Part shown: positions 2,111-43,159 of the stretch, piece by piece
Layout of the letters: each line of letters begins with the position of its first letter
Numbering within the stretch: position 1 is the first letter of the stretch
Source: Deltaproteobacteria bacterium
GTDB lineage: Bacteria; Desulfobacterota; JAJRXV01
Direction: 5' to 3'
DNA length: 50,090 bases
Assembly (NCBI GenBank): GCA_024275075.1
Contig: JAJRZU010000050.1
Location: forward strand, 1-50,090
The notes under the pieces: generated by a model
Seen by the model: only the letters and a program-made list of their open reading frames with translations
Told to the model about the DNA's origin: nothing
Database searches by the model: none
Program-made: the position numbers and the translations under genes

Positions 2111-3652
<1,542 letters not shown>

Positions 3653-6935: not shown

Positions 6936-7143
6936 TAATACTTAAATGTTTTTATCATTCAACTTTTGTACTTTATAAGTGAGTCTGAGCGGCCGCTTGG
7001 TTTTATTATTGTTTTTTTATCGCCGCTAACTGTAGAGACATTTTGTACGTAAAAGCCGCGTTTAGAGACTAAGCAGTAATTACAAGTTGTTATGCTTGGC
7101 GGATTATTGAAATATTGATTTATCCATGATTTTTTAACCGTAA

Positions 7144-7243
7144 TGAACTGCTTTGCGGCAAGCTGTCGGAGTATCTGGTTTAAATCTCGTAGCAAGCTAC
7201 GGAGAATTAAACCCGCTGAAAAAAAACAGGTTAGCCTGTTAAA
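7144..7243 (+). repeat. Dispersed repeat family 1, copy C (best preserved)
   Basis: The 100-bp unit has three potential hairpins: GCGGCAAGCTGTCGG; then GGTTTAA (7177-7183) pairing with TTAAACC (7207-7213) around GTAGCAAGCTAC; then ACAGGTTAGCCTGT. Its last bases (AAA) run directly into GGGGGG, the ribosome binding site of the gene at 7255. Confidence 0.8.
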
Positions 7244-7254
7244 GGGGGGAATTC

Positions 7255-7866
7255 ATGTCAAAAGGTAGGCCAAGTTTCTTCAGACGGACTTTCCTTATCG
7301 AGAGATCCTATCAGATAAAATTCATCTTAAAGATCGTTTCTTTTGTCGCCTTTGCCACGATCATCACCGGTGTCGTCACATATTTCCTCACCAATGAAGA
7401 GCTCGAGCGGAGCTTTTACAGCATACATTACCAGATAAAGAACGTCTGGCAGATACTCTTGCCCGCGGTCGTAATAATCAGTTTCATAACGACCGCCATC
7501 GTCGCTTTTTTCACTACATTTATTTCGCTGTATGAGTCCCATAAGATAGGCGGCCCTTTGTTCCGGTTTAAAAAGAGCCTGAAGGAGATCGGTACTGGTG
7601 ATCTAAGCGTTGTGACTAAGCTGCGGGCGAGTGACGAGCTGCAAGAGCTGACCGACAACATCAATACGATGACTGCGAACTTGAAGGAGAAAGTAATTAG
7701 AATCGATAAAGATTATGATGCGTTAAAAGAGCAGGCGAACGTAATGAACGAGAGTTTTTCTTCAAAAAGCGGCTTAGGTGACAAGGATAAGGAGCTTTTG
7801 CGGGTACTTAATAAGAGAATAAACGAACTGGGGGAGGACATACACCAGTTTAAATTTGAAGGATAA
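7255..7866 (+). CDS. Membrane protein with two TM segments and a HAMP domain, no output domain
   Basis: A 203-residue protein. TM1 is at about residues 22-45 (FILKIVSFVAFATIITGVVT) and TM2 at about 67-92 (ILLPAVVIISFITTAIVAFF), with only a short periplasmic loop between them. A HAMP linker follows (HKIGGPLFRFKKSLKEIGTG, then DLSVVTKLRASDELQELTDN), then a coiled-coil tail. There is no kinase, cyclase or MCP signalling domain, so it would act by pairing with another protein or as a structural partner. It lies 6 bp before the multiheme cytochrome gene, which suggests a joint membrane complex. The start ATG follows AAAGGGGGGAATTC. HAMP and TM assignment is firm; the role is inferred. Confidence 0.85.
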   Translation: MSKGRPSFFRRTFLIERSYQIKFILKIVSFVAFATIITGVVTYFLTNEELERSFYSIHYQIKNVWQILLPAVVIISFITTAIVAFFTTFISLYESHKIGGPLFRFKKSLKEIGTGDLSVVTKLRASDELQELTDNINTMTANLKEKVIRIDKDYDALKEQANVMNESFSSKSGLGDKDKELLRVLNKRINELGEDIHQFKFEG

Positions 7867-7872
7867 TGTCAA

Positions 7873-9525
7873 TTGAAAGAGATTCGCGTATCAAAATCAC
7901 TAATAGTCTTACTGATTATCCTTGGTATTTGGTTAGGGGTGTTTTCCATTGTGCCGCTCTTTTTTGTAAAGCCGCCGCCGGATCCTCATATCGCGGCATT
8001 TGCGGATAAATGCGTGATCTGCCACAAAGAGGAACCCAAGGCTTTGAAAACCGCCGAGGAGAAGAAGAAGGAAGCCGCAGCTAAGGCTGAGGAGAAGAAG
8101 AAAAAGAAGAAGCGAAAGATAGATTTCAAGAAGAAGAAGGAGTACAAAGTCTCTTTGTTCAATAAAGACGTAGTAAGCCTTTGCGTTGGATGTCACCAGG
8201 AGATGGACAGCGACACATTGCATCCTCTGGATATCAAGCCGACCCAGTCCAATGGCAGCAAGCTCCCGTTTGATTCGGATGGGACGTTGACCTGCATTAC
8301 GTGCCACTACCCGCATGGCAGTAACTATTCTGCCGAGCAGTACGTTGGGCGGACTTCATTGGCAAAGCTGATATCAGTATTCTTAAAGAAAAAGTATTAT
8401 AAAACTTATTATCTGCGCATGAAAGTAGTGAAGGGTGAGTTGTGCAATGAATGTCATGAGATCAAGGAGCTCGCCACAAAGAAGCGGCATCTTGAGCTAA
8501 AGTACACTAAAGAGGATTACATCGGTTCTGAAAAGTGTGGCGACTGTCACTTAGAAAAGTATGAGGCATGGAAGAAGACCCCGCACGCGCGAATGATCAG
8601 GAACCCGCAGACAGATAAGACAGCTATTATCGCCGATTTTTCAAATTCGCCGCCATTTCGGATAGATGAGGTAAAATATACTATCGGTAATCACTGGACG
8701 CAGCGTTTCATCAGTGAGCGAAAAGGGAAATTATATGTCCGCTCGCCCATCTGGTCGATCCAGGAGGAGAAGTGGAATACCAAATACTGGAAGGATATGG
8801 CATGGTTGAAATATTGTGCGGGGTGTCACACGACAGGTTACAGCCCCGTCGGCGGCGGCGAGTACTCAGAGGTGGGGATTTCGTGTGAGGCGTGCCACGG
8901 GCCGGGCAAAAAGCACGCGCTGACTGAGGATCCGGCTCTTATCGTCAACCCGCAGAAGCTGTATGACGACCCGAAGACAAGGAGCAGGAAGGATATGATC
9001 TGCGAAGGGTGCCACACGACCGGACACGACCCGACCGGTGAGTTTAAGTTCCCTGTCGGTTTCCTGCCCGGGGAGAACCTGCAGGATTACTACATAGGAC
9101 TTCTACCGAAGCCCGGTCAGGACGACTCGACCTTTAGAGGTGATAATAGTTATGAGGACAGGCATAACCAGTTTATGTTTGTTCAAAAGTCATTCTTTAA
9201 AGCTCAAGGTATAACTTGCGATATATGCAAGAACTTCAGGGCGCAAAAGATGGAGGAGAATGAAGGTGGGAAGAAGAAGGAGTTCCTGACGCCGTCGGAA
9301 TTTTGCATGACGTGCCACCAAAGGGATCTTAAGAGGACTGACCTTCACATTGCTCACCTGATAGATGAAGTCAACTGCCATGACTGCCACCAACCAGAGC
9401 TGGCACCGGATAAAAAGCGCTACAGTATACATGACCATAAGTTCATGTTCCTGGCGCCTAAATATAAGACTGCGTTTGCAGTGAAGGAAAGCTGTGATCA
9501 TTGCCATAAAGGTAAACAACTATAA
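7873..9525 (+). CDS. Membrane-anchored multiheme cytochrome c (11 CXXCH plus one CXXCK)
   Basis: A 550-residue protein with an uncleaved-looking N-terminal anchor (residues 9-32). CXXCH motifs begin at Cys 47, 104, 141, 191, 222, 315, 338, 377, 478, 502 and 541. A twelfth, CDICK, is at 449-453. The centre (YIGSEKCGDCHLEKYEAWKK, then WLKYCAGCHTTGY and ISCEACHGPGKKHA) matches the cytochrome c554-like families. Between hemes 1 and 2 lies a very basic low-complexity stretch (residues 60-90, mostly Lys, Glu and Ala). It is probably a periplasmic, membrane-tethered electron carrier or reductase. A Lys-ligated heme (CXXCK) is known as the catalytic site in NrfA nitrite reductases, but the rest is not NrfA-like. 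The TTG start follows the HAMP gene; TlpA-like thioredoxins follow and may serve heme attachment. Confidence 0.9.
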   Translation: MKEIRVSKSLIVLLIILGIWLGVFSIVPLFFVKPPPDPHIAAFADKCVICHKEEPKALKTAEEKKKEAAAKAEEKKKKKKRKIDFKKKKEYKVSLFNKDVVSLCVGCHQEMDSDTLHPLDIKPTQSNGSKLPFDSDGTLTCITCHYPHGSNYSAEQYVGRTSLAKLISVFLKKKYYKTYYLRMKVVKGELCNECHEIKELATKKRHLELKYTKEDYIGSEKCGDCHLEKYEAWKKTPHARMIRNPQTDKTAIIADFSNSPPFRIDEVKYTIGNHWTQRFISERKGKLYVRSPIWSIQEEKWNTKYWKDMAWLKYCAGCHTTGYSPVGGGEYSEVGISCEACHGPGKKHALTEDPALIVNPQKLYDDPKTRSRKDMICEGCHTTGHDPTGEFKFPVGFLPGENLQDYYIGLLPKPGQDDSTFRGDNSYEDRHNQFMFVQKSFFKAQGITCDICKNFRAQKMEENEGGKKKEFLTPSEFCMTCHQRDLKRTDLHIAHLIDEVNCHDCHQPELAPDKKRYSIHDHKFMFLAPKYKTAFAVKESCDHCHKGKQL

Positions 9526-9545
9526 AAGAAAAGGGGGATTTTATT

Positions 9546-10079
9546 TTGGAGAGAAGATACATATTAAAAAGGTTGTTGATATTAACGGTTTGTTTTGCGT
9601 TCTTGTTGGGCGTCGCGCTAAGTTCATTTGCTGTATGTCAGAAGATCGGTGACGTTGCACCAGGCTTTGAGTTAGAGGAGCTAAATAGTGGTGAATTAGC
9701 TAAGCTATCTGATTATAAGGGCAAAGTCATCCTGCTCACTTTCTGGGCGACATGGTGTCCAAGGTGCTGGGAGGAGTTGGACTATATCAAGGCGCGGTTT
9801 GAGAATGAAGATCGTGTCGCTGTACTGCTGGTGAATATGGAGACCCAGAGCCTTTCACCCCTTCACGTTAAAAAGATTAAGAAAAAGGCTAAGGAGCATC
9901 AGATCAAGTTCCCTATGTTCCTTGACAAGAGGTTGAAAGTGTGGGAACTTTATTGTGTAAACTCTCTGCCGACTACTCTGGTGCTGGATAAAGAGGGTAA
10001 GGTGGCATTTGTGGAACCAAACTTCTACTTTGAGTCTCGGGAGAAGATAGAAGATATAATAAAAGACCTCCTAAAGTAA
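9546..10079 (+). CDS. TlpA/ResA-like periplasmic thioredoxin (paralogue 1)
   Basis: A 177-residue protein with an N-terminal signal peptide (ILKRLLILTVCFAFLLGVAL, with likely cleavage after SSFA). The thioredoxin fold has the redox motif WATWCPRCWEEL (Cys 71 and 74) and the cis-Pro loop SLPTT. Two further Cys stand out: Cys31 at the mature N-terminus (VCQKIGDVAP) and Cys137 just before the cis-Pro loop (LYCVNS). Both are conserved in the paralogue at 11914, so a second disulfide is plausible. ResA/CcmG relatives reduce apocytochrome c thiols before heme attachment. Sitting 20 bp after a heme-rich cytochrome, that is the best guess. The TTG start is preceded by AAGGGGGAT. Confidence 0.85.
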   Translation: MERRYILKRLLILTVCFAFLLGVALSSFAVCQKIGDVAPGFELEELNSGELAKLSDYKGKVILLTFWATWCPRCWEELDYIKARFENEDRVAVLLVNMETQSLSPLHVKKIKKKAKEHQIKFPMFLDKRLKVWELYCVNSLPTTLVLDKEGKVAFVEPNFYFESREKIEDIIKDLLK

Positions 10080-10132
10080 CAGCGTCAAAAAAGGGGGTAT
10101 CTCTTTTAAATAACTTAATATGAGGGGTTTAT

Positions 10133-11116
10133 ATGGATCCAAAGAGTGAGCTTAAGCTAATTGAAGATATTTTAAGTAAAATAAATTCTAAGATGACCTC
10201 TGAAGAGCTGATAAGCTATGCATTGACAAAAATATGCAGCGTGTATGATTTTCTGTCTTGCGGTATCATTACTTATGATAAGATGACAGGCGATCTAAGG
10301 GTCAAAATATCAAAAGGATTAAGTCACCAGTTTGTAAAGACATTTCATGAGAAAAAGACGAAAGGTATTATCGAGGAAGTCTTAAAAAATGAAATGGCGC
10401 TTTTGATTAACAAAGACCACCCGCACTATAATAAAGAGGAATTTCGATTTGAACACGACTACGAAGTTCTATATGTAACGCCATTAAGAATCGGTGGCGA
10501 AGTCATCGGCGCTATTTATTTCGATTCCACGAACAAAGATATGTTCTCAGAGAGCGACTTGAATTTCCTAAGTGATTTCGCCAATATATGCGCGCTGGTA
10601 ATCGACCACACTAACCTGCTCGACTATATTGTCAAAACGTCTGATCATGACAGTCTCACCGGCCTTTATAGCTACAAATATTTCCATGAGGCGTTAGACC
10701 GGGAGATGATGCACGCGAAGAGGGCAGATTATCCGGTGGCTCTGTTCTTAGCTTCTATCGGGCACTTAGGCGACTATAATTCAGTTTTCGGGCATATCGC
10801 CGGCGACCAGGCTGTCATCACTACCGCGAATATAATCAAAGAGTGTATCAGGAGTAACGATATCCCTGCAAGGTACGGGAATAAATTTATTATCATCTTC
10901 CCTGAATCTGACGCTCAGGGAGTCAGCCAGCTTGCAGAAAGGATCTGTAAAAGGATGGATGATGAGGCATTTAAGGGGAAGGCCCCAAAACCGACTCTGC
11001 GGATCGGCATAGCAAGCTTCCCAAGAGACGGCATGGAGGAGCAAGAGCTCATTACTCATGCCGAGAGGAACTTGTTTGAGGCAAAACGCAGGGGTGGCAA
11101 TAGTTATGTTTACTAA
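10133..11116 (+). CDS. GAF domain with degenerate GGDEF domain (probably catalytically inactive)
   Basis: A 327-residue cytoplasmic protein. The GAF domain is at about residues 10-160 and the GGDEF-like domain at 165-325 (DHDSLTGLYSYKYFHEALDR). The catalytic GGDEF motif is replaced by GNKFI (249-253), and the metal-binding Asp of the usual DIDxFK is gone (LASIGHLGDYN). The inhibitory RxxD site is kept five residues upstream of the motif (RSND, 240-243). This pattern suggests a c-di-GMP receptor rather than a synthase; that is inference. It sits between two thioredoxin genes in the cytochrome cluster. Its 3' end overlaps the next gene by 11 bp and is followed by repeat family 1 copy D. Confidence 0.85.
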   Translation: MDPKSELKLIEDILSKINSKMTSEELISYALTKICSVYDFLSCGIITYDKMTGDLRVKISKGLSHQFVKTFHEKKTKGIIEEVLKNEMALLINKDHPHYNKEEFRFEHDYEVLYVTPLRIGGEVIGAIYFDSTNKDMFSESDLNFLSDFANICALVIDHTNLLDYIVKTSDHDSLTGLYSYKYFHEALDREMMHAKRADYPVALFLASIGHLGDYNSVFGHIAGDQAVITTANIIKECIRSNDIPARYGNKFIIIFPESDAQGVSQLAERICKRMDDEAFKGKAPKPTLRIGIASFPRDGMEEQELITHAERNLFEAKRRGGNSYVY

Positions 11117-11948
11117 AGTGAACTGCCATGCGGCAGGCTGTCAGGGAATCAGGTTTAAAATCTCGCAGCGGGCTGTGGGGAATGAAATCCGCAGAAAAAA
11201 ACAGGGCGCCCTGTTCAAGTGTTTGATATTGTTCCTATTCATTTTGTCGGCAACCGCCTGTCATGCCGAAGTAAAACCTGACAGTTCAAACGTAGTAAAC
11301 GATGTCTCAGAGCTTAAAGACCTCTATGAAACAATAATTCCGGTCGGTTCATACGCACCAAGCTTCAAATTAAAGGACCTGGCCGGCAGGGTTTGGGATG
11401 CAGAAACCTTTTTAAAGAAACAAGTCACTATTCTCTACTTCTGGTCGGCTTTCTGTCCGTATTGTAAAGAATCGTTACCAAAGCTTAACAAACTGAATGA
11501 AAAATATAGGCAAAAAGGGTTAAAGGTCCTGGCCATAAACCTTGACGGTCGGGATTTCTCCAATGCCATTATATCTTTTTTGACTGATAGTAAAATAAAG
11601 CTTACCGTTCCTTTAGATGAACTGTATGAGCAGAAGTTCTTTACCGCCGGTGACCCGTACGGTGTAAACAAGACGCCTACGATATTTTTGGTCGATAAAA
11701 GCGGGAAGATTATATATGAAGCTGAAGTCGATATAGATTACCCGTTCTTAGAGAAATTGATACAGGAGAACACAAAGAACGTAAAGCAGAAGGTAATGAT
11801 AATAGTGATCGCTTTTGTTATTTTGATTCTCTTATCTATTATCGTCTTTATTTTCTTTATACGACCTAACATGATCCAGAATAAAATAATTGATGACCTT
11901 AAAAGGAGAACGCATGATGAGATTAAAAATGAGAGCAGTAGTTCTTAG
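11106..11948 (+). CDS. TlpA-like thioredoxin with C-terminal membrane anchor; N-terminus runs through a repeat
   Basis: The thioredoxin domain (GSYAPSFKLKDLAGRVWDAE, then FWSAFCPYCKESLPKLNKL and the cis-Pro loop NKTPTIFLVDKSG) is followed by a C-terminal transmembrane helix (MIIVIAFVILILLSIIVFIF) and a charged tail. The active site is FCPYC. The start is unclear. ATG 11106 has an AGGGGTGG site and overlaps the previous stop, but then the first 40 or so residues are encoded by repeat family 1 copy D. GTG 11175 would give a basic n-region (NEIRRKKQG) before the hydrophobic LILFLFILSATAC signal, and TTG 11223 starts inside that signal. The Cys in SATACHA might be a weak lipobox. It is the middle of three thioredoxin genes in this cluster. 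Confidence 0.7.
   Translation: MFTKVNCHAAGCQGIRFKISQRAVGNEIRRKKQGALFKCLILFLFILSATACHAEVKPDSSNVVNDVSELKDLYETIIPVGSYAPSFKLKDLAGRVWDAETFLKKQVTILYFWSAFCPYCKESLPKLNKLNEKYRQKGLKVLAINLDGRDFSNAIISFLTDSKIKLTVPLDELYEQKFFTAGDPYGVNKTPTIFLVDKSGKIIYEAEVDIDYPFLEKLIQENTKNVKQKVMIIVIAFVILILLSIIVFIFFIRPNMIQNKIIDDLKRRTHDEIKNESSSS
11119..11218 (+). repeat. Dispersed repeat family 1, copy D (overlaps coding frame)
   Basis: A full-length 100-bp copy: TGAACTGCCATGCGGCAGG, then GGTTTAAAATCTCGCAGCGG with GCTGTGGGG, then ACAGGGCGCCCTGT (a perfect palindrome at 11201-11214). Hairpin 2 keeps pairing through a T-A to C-G change relative to copy C (GTAGC/GCTAC becomes GCAGC/GCTGT). It has no in-frame stop in the reading frame of the following thioredoxin gene. 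Confidence 0.75.
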
Positions 11949-12447
11949 TATTGTCGCAGTTCTTTTGGTATTTTCTTTTGCACCGAATTCTTCTTTTGCG
12001 ATTTGTATGAAGAAGGGTGACGTGGCGCCTGAGTTTGTATTAAGTGATATAGACGGTAATATAGTGAAACTATCTGATTATAGAGGTAAAGTCGTTCTCT
12101 TGACTTTCTGGGCTACATGGTGCGCGAAGTGCTGGGAAGAGATAGATTTCATTCAGACATCCCTTGAAAAAACTGAAGACCTCGCTATCATTCTCATCAA
12201 TATGGAGACCAGGTCACTCTCTGAGGCGCACCTGAAAAAGATAAAGACCACAGTCAGAGAGCTGGACATCAAGTTCCCGGTACTCCTTGACCTGAAACTC
12301 AAGGCATATAAAGATTATTGCATATCTTCGCTGCCATCTACCGCTATTGTTGATAGAGAGGGTATCATCCAGTTTGCCGGCCCTCATTTCTATAAAGCGT
12401 ACAGGGAGAAGATAAACAATGTTATCAAAGAGTTAAGCGCAAAATAG
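11914..12447 (+). CDS. TlpA/ResA-like periplasmic thioredoxin (paralogue 2)
   Basis: A 178-residue close paralogue of the protein at 9546. It has a signal peptide ending NSSFA, Cys31 at the mature N-terminus (ICMKKGDVAPEF), the redox motif WATWCAKCWEEI (Cys 70 and 73), INMETRSLSEAHLKKIK, KFPVLLDLKLKAYKDYC and the cis-Pro loop SLPST. The extra Cys pair of paralogue 1 is kept. The dipeptide between the active-site cysteines differs (AK against PR), which should shift the redox potential. ATG 11914 (or 11917) is chosen because AAAAGGAG lies just upstream. The gene overlaps the preceding thioredoxin gene by 35 bp, so translation is probably coupled. Confidence 0.87.
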   Translation: MMRLKMRAVVLSIVAVLLVFSFAPNSSFAICMKKGDVAPEFVLSDIDGNIVKLSDYRGKVVLLTFWATWCAKCWEEIDFIQTSLEKTEDLAIILINMETRSLSEAHLKKIKTTVRELDIKFPVLLDLKLKAYKDYCISSLPSTAIVDREGIIQFAGPHFYKAYREKINNVIKELSAK

Positions 12448-12452
12448 AAACC

Positions 12453-13442
12453 ATGCAAATCGGTGATCTTTACCTTGATAACAACTTCTTCTTAGCGCCG
12501 CTTGCCGGTATCTCCAACCTGCCGTTTCGACTGCTTAACAAAGATTATGGCTGCGCATTGGTCTACACAGAAATGATCAGCGTGCAAGGGCTCATAAGGC
12601 GCGGGAAAAAAACATTTAACCTCATGATCTCTGACGAAAGGGAGAAACCTGTAACGTTTCAGATTTTCGGGTCTGATCCGGCGGCGCTGGCTGACGCGGC
12701 AAAGATATGCGAGGAGCGCGGCGCGGACATAATCGATATCAACATGGGCTGCCCGGTAAAGAAAGTGGTGAGGAACGGCGCCGGCGCCGCCCTGCTAAGC
12801 GACCCTGACAAAGTAAGAAGCATCATCAAAAGCGTAAGAAATTCAATCAATATACCGCTTACAATAAAATTGCGGTTAGGTCTTGACCACACAAGCCTGA
12901 CCTACCTGAAAATCGCGGCGATCGCAGAGGCCCAGGGCGCCGACGCGATATGCCTGCACCCGCGCACAAAGAACCAGGGCTTCAAAGGTGAGATAGACAC
13001 CGATGCCTTGAAAACACTCAAACAGAGCGTAAAGGTTCCGGTCATCGGGAGCGGCAACCTCTTCACCGCAGACGACGCGCGGGAGATGCTCGCCAAAACA
13101 GGCTGCGATGCCGTGATGTTAGCCAGGGGCGCGCTCGGGAACCCGTTCATCTTCGAAGAGCTCATCGCGAACAGCGCCACCCACCCCCATCAAGGAAGGG
13201 GGACAGGATTGACCCCGATGCAGAGCACAGGGGAACGCTTTCGGTTGAAGAAAGTTATTCTTAAACATATCGACTACTTCCTGGAATTTTACAATGAGAA
13301 AAAATGCCACAAAGAGATGAAAAAGCACCTGCTCTGGTACACAAAAGGGTTGCAGGGAAGCTCGGAATTCAGGCAAAAAGTCGTCCATTCAGATGACCTT
13401 CCCCAGATGCGCCGCCTGCTCGACGATTACCTCGGCGCTTGA
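12453..13442 (+). CDS. dusB: tRNA-dihydrouridine synthase, DusB-like
   Basis: A 329-residue flavoenzyme reducing uridines in tRNA to dihydrouridine. The TIM-barrel signatures are present: FFLAPLAGISNLPFR (FMN site), VTFQIFGSDP, DINMGCPVKKVVRNGAGAAL with the catalytic Cys in GCP, KLRLG, CLHPRTKNQGFKGE and PVIGSGNLFTADDA followed by VMLARGALGNPFIF. The C-terminal helical tRNA-binding domain (KKHLLWYTKGLQGSSEFRQ) is intact. Before that domain a low-similarity loop (residues about 243-264) is encoded by a palindrome-like stretch resembling the CCCCC-TTGATGGGGG repeats elsewhere in the window. The ATG lies 5 bp after the thioredoxin stop and may be co-transcribed with it, though the functions look unrelated. 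Confidence 0.92.
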   Translation: MQIGDLYLDNNFFLAPLAGISNLPFRLLNKDYGCALVYTEMISVQGLIRRGKKTFNLMISDEREKPVTFQIFGSDPAALADAAKICEERGADIIDINMGCPVKKVVRNGAGAALLSDPDKVRSIIKSVRNSINIPLTIKLRLGLDHTSLTYLKIAAIAEAQGADAICLHPRTKNQGFKGEIDTDALKTLKQSVKVPVIGSGNLFTADDAREMLAKTGCDAVMLARGALGNPFIFEELIANSATHPHQGRGTGLTPMQSTGERFRLKKVILKHIDYFLEFYNEKKCHKEMKKHLLWYTKGLQGSSEFRQKVVHSDDLPQMRRLLDDYLGA

Positions 13443-32347: not shown

Positions 32348-32411
32348 AGCTGACGCGCCTGTTTTTGCTGTGGGTTTGATTCCCGTCAGCTTGCTACGGG
32401 GTAGTTCATTA
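32348..32411 (-). repeat. Dispersed repeat family 1, copy E
   Basis: Read on the minus strand: TGAACTACCCCGTAGCAAGC, TGACGGGAATCAAACCCACA, then GCAAAAACAGGCGCGTCAGC. This is a shortened form like copy A. It lies downstream of the mcp stop and upstream of cheR, in the same orientation as those genes. Confidence 0.65.
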
Positions 32412-43021: not shown

Positions 43022-43159
43022 GCTAATATATTGGGTGAAGCATCATGCTTCCTCTTTAAATGAAATAATAAGTCAAGCAATAACCTACAATGCTTCCAAT
43101 TTGAGCGAAATAATGTATATTGCTAATATATTGGGTGAAGCATCATGCTTCCTCTTTAA
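43022..43159. repeat. 38-bp direct repeat, two copies 100 bp apart, at the end of the DUF5752 gene
   Basis: The identical 38-bp copies are 43022-43059 and 43122-43159. Each contains the palindrome GAAGCATCATGCTTC. The second copy includes the last codons and the TGA stop of the DUF5752 gene; the first is a duplicate in the downstream spacer. The intervening DNA differs from what follows the second copy, so this is not a simple tandem duplication. Confidence 0.8.

Follow-up and report, generated by a model that had tools for sequence, protein, structure and literature searches.

A conserved HAMP, cytochrome and TlpA gene module whose multiheme cytochrome carries a CxxC lacking its heme-ligating histidine

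The window, a 50,090-nucleotide stretch of a Deltaproteobacteria bacterium genome (Desulfobacterota), encodes a multiheme cytochrome, here called CYT. By alignment, one of its eight core heme sites retains both cysteines, but the histidine that would ligate the heme is gone, as are two histidines beside it. Cytochromes that share this change form a clade (the CxxC clade), and most are encoded close to TlpA-like thioredoxins. The recurring set of a HAMP-only protein, CYT, TlpA and a second TlpA-like protein (TlpA') is best explained as a conserved redox module of the cell envelope. On the evidence of the sequences, we put at about 0.5 the probability that a dithiol in exchange with TlpA has taken the place of a heme in CYT, making the cytochrome a heme-to-thiol junction.

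ORF reading gave six genes in one direction between positions 7255 and 12447 of the window. The initial annotation had named the same six, with a HAMP-only membrane protein, a heme-rich protein and TlpA-like proteins among them, and all were recovered where it had placed them. The data are metagenome-assembled genomes with contig ends, and ORFs were called mechanically. The features are as follows.

7255..7866, + strand: HAMP-only inner-membrane protein, 203 aa, HAMP domain at residues 98-145 (PF00672, E = 2e-6)
7873..9525, + strand: multiheme cytochrome CYT, 550 aa, TTG start, c554/c7-type domains (PF13435/PF14522/PF22113)
9217..9231, + strand: CDICK codons (residues 449-453), site 5 of the CYT core, equivalent of OcwA heme 6 by alignment
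9546..10079, + strand: TlpA1, ResA/TlpA-type thioredoxin, 177 aa, CPRC, N-terminal signal/anchor (PF00578/PF08534)
10133..11116, + strand: GAF plus degenerate GGDEF (Pfam), accessory gene
11118..11215, + strand: copy of an interspersed repeat, between the GAF gene and TlpA' (sequence repeat comparison)
11223..11948, + strand: TlpA', CPYC, C-terminal transmembrane helix and cytoplasmic tail (PF08534)
11914..12447, + strand: TlpA2, CAKC, ATG at 11914, paralogue of TlpA1
12453..13442, + strand: dusB-like tRNA-dihydrouridine synthase (PF01207)

The HAMP-only protein has transmembrane helices at residues 23-41 and 67-85, separated by a loop of about 25 residues, and ends in a short coiled tail; Pfam found no output domain in it. 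TlpA1, TlpA' and TlpA2 have a thioredoxin/redoxin fold (Pfam AhpC-TSA/Redoxin) with an intact CxxC in each. They score 100, 73 and 101 bits, respectively, against the NCBIfam ResA model PRK03147, below its cut-off of 170, and under that cut-off ResA is the best NCBIfam match of both TlpA1 and TlpA2. The transmembrane helix of TlpA' lies at residues 248-266 of a 296-aa ORF, for which 11058 and 11106 are alternative openings. The genes had been described as tightly spaced or overlapping from 11106 onward. That description stands for TlpA2, whose start overlaps the end of TlpA' by 35 nt, but an overlap between the GAF gene and TlpA' is doubtful. An ORF opening at 11106 would translate the repeat, which is absent from the orthologue in the related genome G001, so the TTG at 11223, just before the predicted signal sequence, is the likelier start. 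Matches to Dus adjoin the module in several other loci (L042, L043, L044, L051, L052 and L053), and the dusB-like gene is a conserved downstream neighbour that probably lies outside the redox function.

Searching 395 genomes with a profile of the HAMP protein yielded 14 matches scoring above 189 bits, the best in the window's phylum. At 13 of these 14, the window counted, HAMP is adjoined by CYT, TlpA and TlpA', and the 14th (in G199) ends at a contig end. Every complete locus has a TlpA' orthologue. The only other genome of the window's family, G001, has the identical order HAMP, CYT, TlpA, GAF-GGDEF, TlpA', TlpA, dus. Other families of the window's phylum have HAMP, CYT, TlpA and TlpA', without GAF and with a single TlpA. 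Among the Riflebacteria, 23 of 40 genomes carry a CYT of the CxxC clade; in 17 the order is TlpA, TlpA', then HAMP, CYT, with an extra gene before HAMP in the 10-heme forms, while two more loci end at contig ends and four, of a CEDCL type, are without HAMP and without TlpA. Riflebacteria HAMP-CYT pairs that seemed to lack TlpA in short loci proved to have it once more of the surrounding sequence was examined. The phylum of G399 also has HAMP next to CYT, with a single TlpA downstream of the pair. Orthologues of the HAMP-only protein adjoin CYT in two phyla plus one further set of genomes, and linkage of the module genes, in more than one order, extends to at least three genome sets. Since the order varies and the membership is kept, the core of the module is HAMP, CYT, TlpA and TlpA', and the identical set and order in other genomes show that the cluster in the window is not a chance arrangement. 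In some Riflebacteria (L247-L254, L259 and L260), the gene between TlpA' and HAMP is parvulin-like by motif, with no match in Pfam.

The initial annotation had proposed a candidate redox unit of heme-rich and periplasmic thiol proteins and had stated that it would be refuted if homologues of these genes never co-occurred in other genomes. They do co-occur, both in the window's phylum and in Riflebacteria, and the unit survives as the conserved HAMP-CYT-TlpA-TlpA' set. Its remark that no described system has this gene set also agrees with our reading of the open-access literature, in which we found no description of either the set or the CxxC clade. The C-terminal anchor of TlpA' and the second TlpA paralogue, to which it had drawn attention, are both present in the window but are not conserved more widely: the anchor and the TlpA1/TlpA2 duplication were seen only in the window's family (G000, the window's own genome, and G001).

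By motif count, CYT has 11 CxxCH motifs and one CxxCK. An N-terminal transmembrane segment or signal is followed by an N-terminal domain with four heme motifs and a C-terminal core with seven heme motifs plus the CxxCK; a 6-heme form in Riflebacteria is without the N-terminal domain. The nearest match to the core (residues 214-550) is OcwA (profile E = 1e-63; Foldseek E = 2e-13), with further matches to OmhA (profile E = 3e-33) and MccA (Foldseek 7e-4), and these comparisons place CYT in the OcwA/MccA family, in which a cytochrome c554 part is combined with an NrfA-like part. In the register given by the OcwA profile alignment, core site 5 aligns with OcwA heme 6 (GVTCQVCHASH). Of 88 aligned relatives, two were loosely aligned and set aside. 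Site 5 is CxxCH in all 50 ordinary relatives, whereas in all 36 members of the window's clade it is CxxC followed by a residue other than His. Histidines at H442, H453 and H456, present in 41, 50 and 50 of the 50 ordinary relatives, respectively, are found in none of the 36. Across 80 distinct clade proteins, the second residue of site 5 is D or E in 73, and the fifth shows no conserved alternative ligand of the SirA or NrfA kind (G in 30, K in 23, Q in 15, L in 5, R in 2, N in 2, and T, C or M in one each). As this residue can be Gly or Leu, it is not an iron ligand. The AlphaFold model of CYT is weak (pLDDT 67, and below 50 at the CxxC).

When the columns around the site were removed before tree building, the CxxC clade fell on one side of a single well-supported branch. 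Independent gains of the CxxC were rejected, as one change suffices on this tree. Because OcwA, OmhA and MccA all bind heme at the equivalent of site 5, loss of a heme is the likely direction of that change. Selenocysteine at the site, considered because of ExtKL and UshA-like matches, was also rejected: the selenocysteine of ExtKL sits in a PDGU motif, there is no TGA at the site, and the TGA flagged in Riflebacteria matches is the terminal stop.

The non-heme CxxC of CYT, which the initial annotation missed, is a mark of TlpA-linked proteins. Using a broad profile built from 68 sequences, we looked for a TlpA-like ORF within 3 kb of each cytochrome. Such an ORF accompanies 31 of the 36 CxxC-clade cytochromes compared to 1 of the 50 ordinary relatives, a contrast that, given the single origin, stands for one event retained, together with its TlpA partner, through a wide radiation and not for 36 independent cases. 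The sole ordinary relative with a TlpA match has a divergent ORF 2.4 kb away. When more sequence was read (L184), the clade member L029 turned out to have TlpA on both sides; those without a nearby TlpA are L026/L182, L027/L183, L046/L190, L057 and four CEDCL types (L243-246). The clade comprises the HAMP-linked type and two further types, one with 7 hemes and one with 8 or 11, which lie among TlpA genes without HAMP. The window's own genome offers a second such locus on another contig (C141, L047, 5371-9760), with the order TlpA, TlpA, CYT (7 heme), TlpA, CYT (11 heme), and both of its cytochromes have a site-5 CxxC without His.

If the heme-to-thiol junction exists, no heme would be bound at C449/C452 of CYT, and the two cysteines would act as a redox-active dithiol/disulfide pair located inside the heme chain or at its end. 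This CxxC could exchange with the CxxC motifs in its TlpA partners, and CYT would then convert between one-electron heme redox and two-electron thiol chemistry in the periplasm. We favor a direction of electron flow from the hemes to TlpA, since proteins of the TlpA/ResA kind mostly act as reductants and no supplier of the CcdA/DsbD type was found in the window's genome. Electrons for periplasmic thiol chemistry generally pass mainly through CcdA/DsbD-type membrane proteins. Neither PF02683 nor PF13386 proteins were found in the window's genome (96% complete), and no PF02683 protein was found in G001. With no CcdA/DsbD found in the window's genome, CYT is left as a candidate TlpA reductant there. 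CcdA is present in many other module genomes (G022, G027, G059, G094, G153, G222, G243, G284, G304 and G307), and a role for CYT as a general replacement of CcdA/DsbD is not supported, since most module genomes carry CcdA. A bolder reading, which we consider less probable, is that conversion of a heme site to a dithiol lets cytochromes of the CYT clade feed or drain periplasmic TlpA, so that reducing power crosses the envelope without CcdA/DsbD; in the window's family this may be the main route.

The main rival to the heme-to-thiol junction is dedicated maturation. Here, the TlpA proteins would be private apocytochrome thioredoxins, similar to ResA or SirH, that keep the many cysteines of CYT reduced so that hemes can be attached, perhaps including an atypical heme at CxxC-X as in NrfA or SirA, and the CxxC itself would have no part in exchange. 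A precedent exists in the sir cluster of Shewanella. There, SirH, a protein of the TlpA/DsbE/ResA type, assists the maturation of SirA, a cytochrome whose heme motif is atypical; without SirH, sulfite reduction is delayed and SirA levels fall (PMC6976685). The best match of TlpA1 and TlpA2 is itself an apocytochrome reductase, and the fifth residue of site 5 is K, as in the CxxCK of NrfA, in 23 of 80 clade proteins. However, the Gly and Leu found there in other members are incapable of ligating iron, and two further histidines were lost alongside. Ordinary relatives with all their hemes have as many heme motifs to mature, and yet only 1 of 50 has TlpA nearby. Nor was a dedicated lyase gene found in the modules: a motif scan of 35 loci for the WWD-type heme-lyase motif picked up nothing inside them and only a CcsA-like gene near L060. 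In some Riflebacteria, a gene that looks HemX-like by eye lies after the module. Dedicated maturation is a serious but doubtful explanation. A metal site is less probable still. The CxxC might bind a metal such as Cu(I), with TlpA reducing the cysteines for loading as it does for the copper sites of cytochrome oxidase. MccA, from the same broad family, has a Cys-bound copper beside its active heme, and TlpA-type proteins help to load CuA sites. Against this, site 5 offers a single CxxC with no conserved extra ligand and an acidic residue after the first Cys, and an unsystematic reading of the loci turned up no copper chaperone. We consider a metal site unlikely.

The initial annotation had leaned toward regulated periplasmic electron or thiol transfer with a possible c-di-GMP receptor. 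A version of that reading, in which extracellular or periplasmic electron transfer is regulated by c-di-GMP and HAMP signaling and TlpA is incidental, gains some credit from the best solved relatives of CYT, OcwA and OmhA, which are extracellular electron transfer cytochromes, and from the HAMP-only protein always adjoining the HAMP-linked CYT subclade. As had been noted, the GGDEF domain appears dead with its I-site intact. GNKFI replaces GGEEF, the metal-binding Asp is Ser and the diguanylate cyclase motif is absent, while the RxxD I-site persists as RSND in the window and in G001, as would suit a putative c-di-GMP receptor of the degenerate GGDEF type. No GAF-GGDEF gene was found outside the window's family, the other orthologous loci lacking it, and the G001 orthologue (L042, frame of 10335-11318) contains an in-frame TAA, which marks either a pseudogene or an assembly error. 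The c-di-GMP link is therefore peripheral, and this part of the earlier reading falls away. TlpA, kept in nearly all modules, is not incidental, and the HAMP protein has no output domain; no partner or output was found for it. Overall, regulation of this kind is highly improbable as the explanation of the cluster.

Within the proposed heme-to-thiol module, the HAMP protein might be a membrane partner of CYT, acting as a scaffold or as a sensor of redox state, though this is a guess, as is any role for it as a regulator of transfer. Binding of a transmembrane heme b by its H58 and H96, both invariant in a first alignment, was rejected: H58 is missing in Riflebacteria and other relatives, and H96 is missing in the second HAMP protein of L177-179. 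In L177, L178 and L179, a seven-heme cytochrome has a HAMP-only protein on each side, and beta-propeller genes and more cytochromes come next. Other HAMP-only proteins (L171-L174 and L176) have a small lipoprotein-like gene (with SurA_N in L174) on one side and a gene for a small exported protein on the other, and some are near exopolysaccharide-type genes.

Several known systems resemble parts of the module. We know of no TlpA or HAMP partner of OcwA, a surface terminal reductase of Thermincola potens (PDB 6I5B). Its heme sites 1 to 4 and the three after site 5 align with those of CYT, but it binds a heme at the site-5 equivalent (heme 6, CQVCH), where CYT has CDICK and no His. It also has two five-coordinate active hemes, one of them the NrfA-type heme 5 in an insert that the CYT core lacks; CYT has no such heme 5. 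OcwA was described as combining a c554-like tetraheme part with an NrfA-like pentaheme part, in a family where MccA-type proteins are without heme 5, and was reported to have no redox-active disulfides (PMC6703420). The octaheme sulfite reductases MccA/SirA belong, like CYT, to this broad family and likewise lack the OcwA heme 5, and the Shewanella sir cluster resembles the module in including a TlpA-type protein (SirH). Unlike CYT, they keep all eight hemes, include an atypical heme motif and have a heme lyase of their own; to our knowledge, no HAMP-only protein occurs in these systems. The TlpA proteins of the window share fold and CxxC with ResA, TlpA and CcmG, none reaching the NCBIfam cut-off of a named member, and we know of no description of such a thioredoxin paired with a CxxC-bearing multiheme cytochrome.

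Thiol chemistry within multiheme cytochromes has its own parallels. The ExtKL (seleno)proteins are multiheme, have a likely thiol or selenol redox residue and share with CYT the region around the first core heme. Their selenocysteine, however, lies in PDGU outside the heme sites and they have no TlpA pair, whereas the CxxC of CYT is at a lost heme site; CYT scores 23 bits against the ExtKL NCBIfam model (cut-off 250) and has no PDGU. ExtKL-type cytochromes with a PDGU selenocysteine (L191, L196, L199, L204 and L207) are common in the window's phylum. In MtrC/OmcA, a disulfide has a role in a multiheme cytochrome (mentioned in PMC6703420), but that disulfide is in a beta domain of a different cytochrome family and not at a former heme site, and we know of no dedicated TlpA genes. 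If the heme-to-thiol junction is real, a heme wire linked directly to a thioredoxin would join respiration to protein-thiol chemistry in a new way and would account for multiheme cytochromes beside TlpA genes in many uncultured bacteria. For annotation in the OcwA/MccA-type family, a site-5 CxxC without His would predict TlpA partners and a heme number one below that of a motif count in which CxxCK is accepted.

The repeat between the GAF gene and TlpA' belongs to an interspersed family of about 85 to 100 nt with inverted-repeat parts, with copies at 7141-7225 and 11118-11215 and also at about 1830, 1984 and 32362-32411. The first of these lies directly before the HAMP gene and the second before TlpA'; a known RNA element at these two places was rejected, as an Rfam search gave no match. 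Elsewhere in the window, positions 2111-3652 encode a secreted-type protein with tandem DxDGDGxGD repeats at a period of 198 nt, and a perfect 38-nt direct repeat occurs at 43022-43059 and 43122-43159, 100 nt apart.
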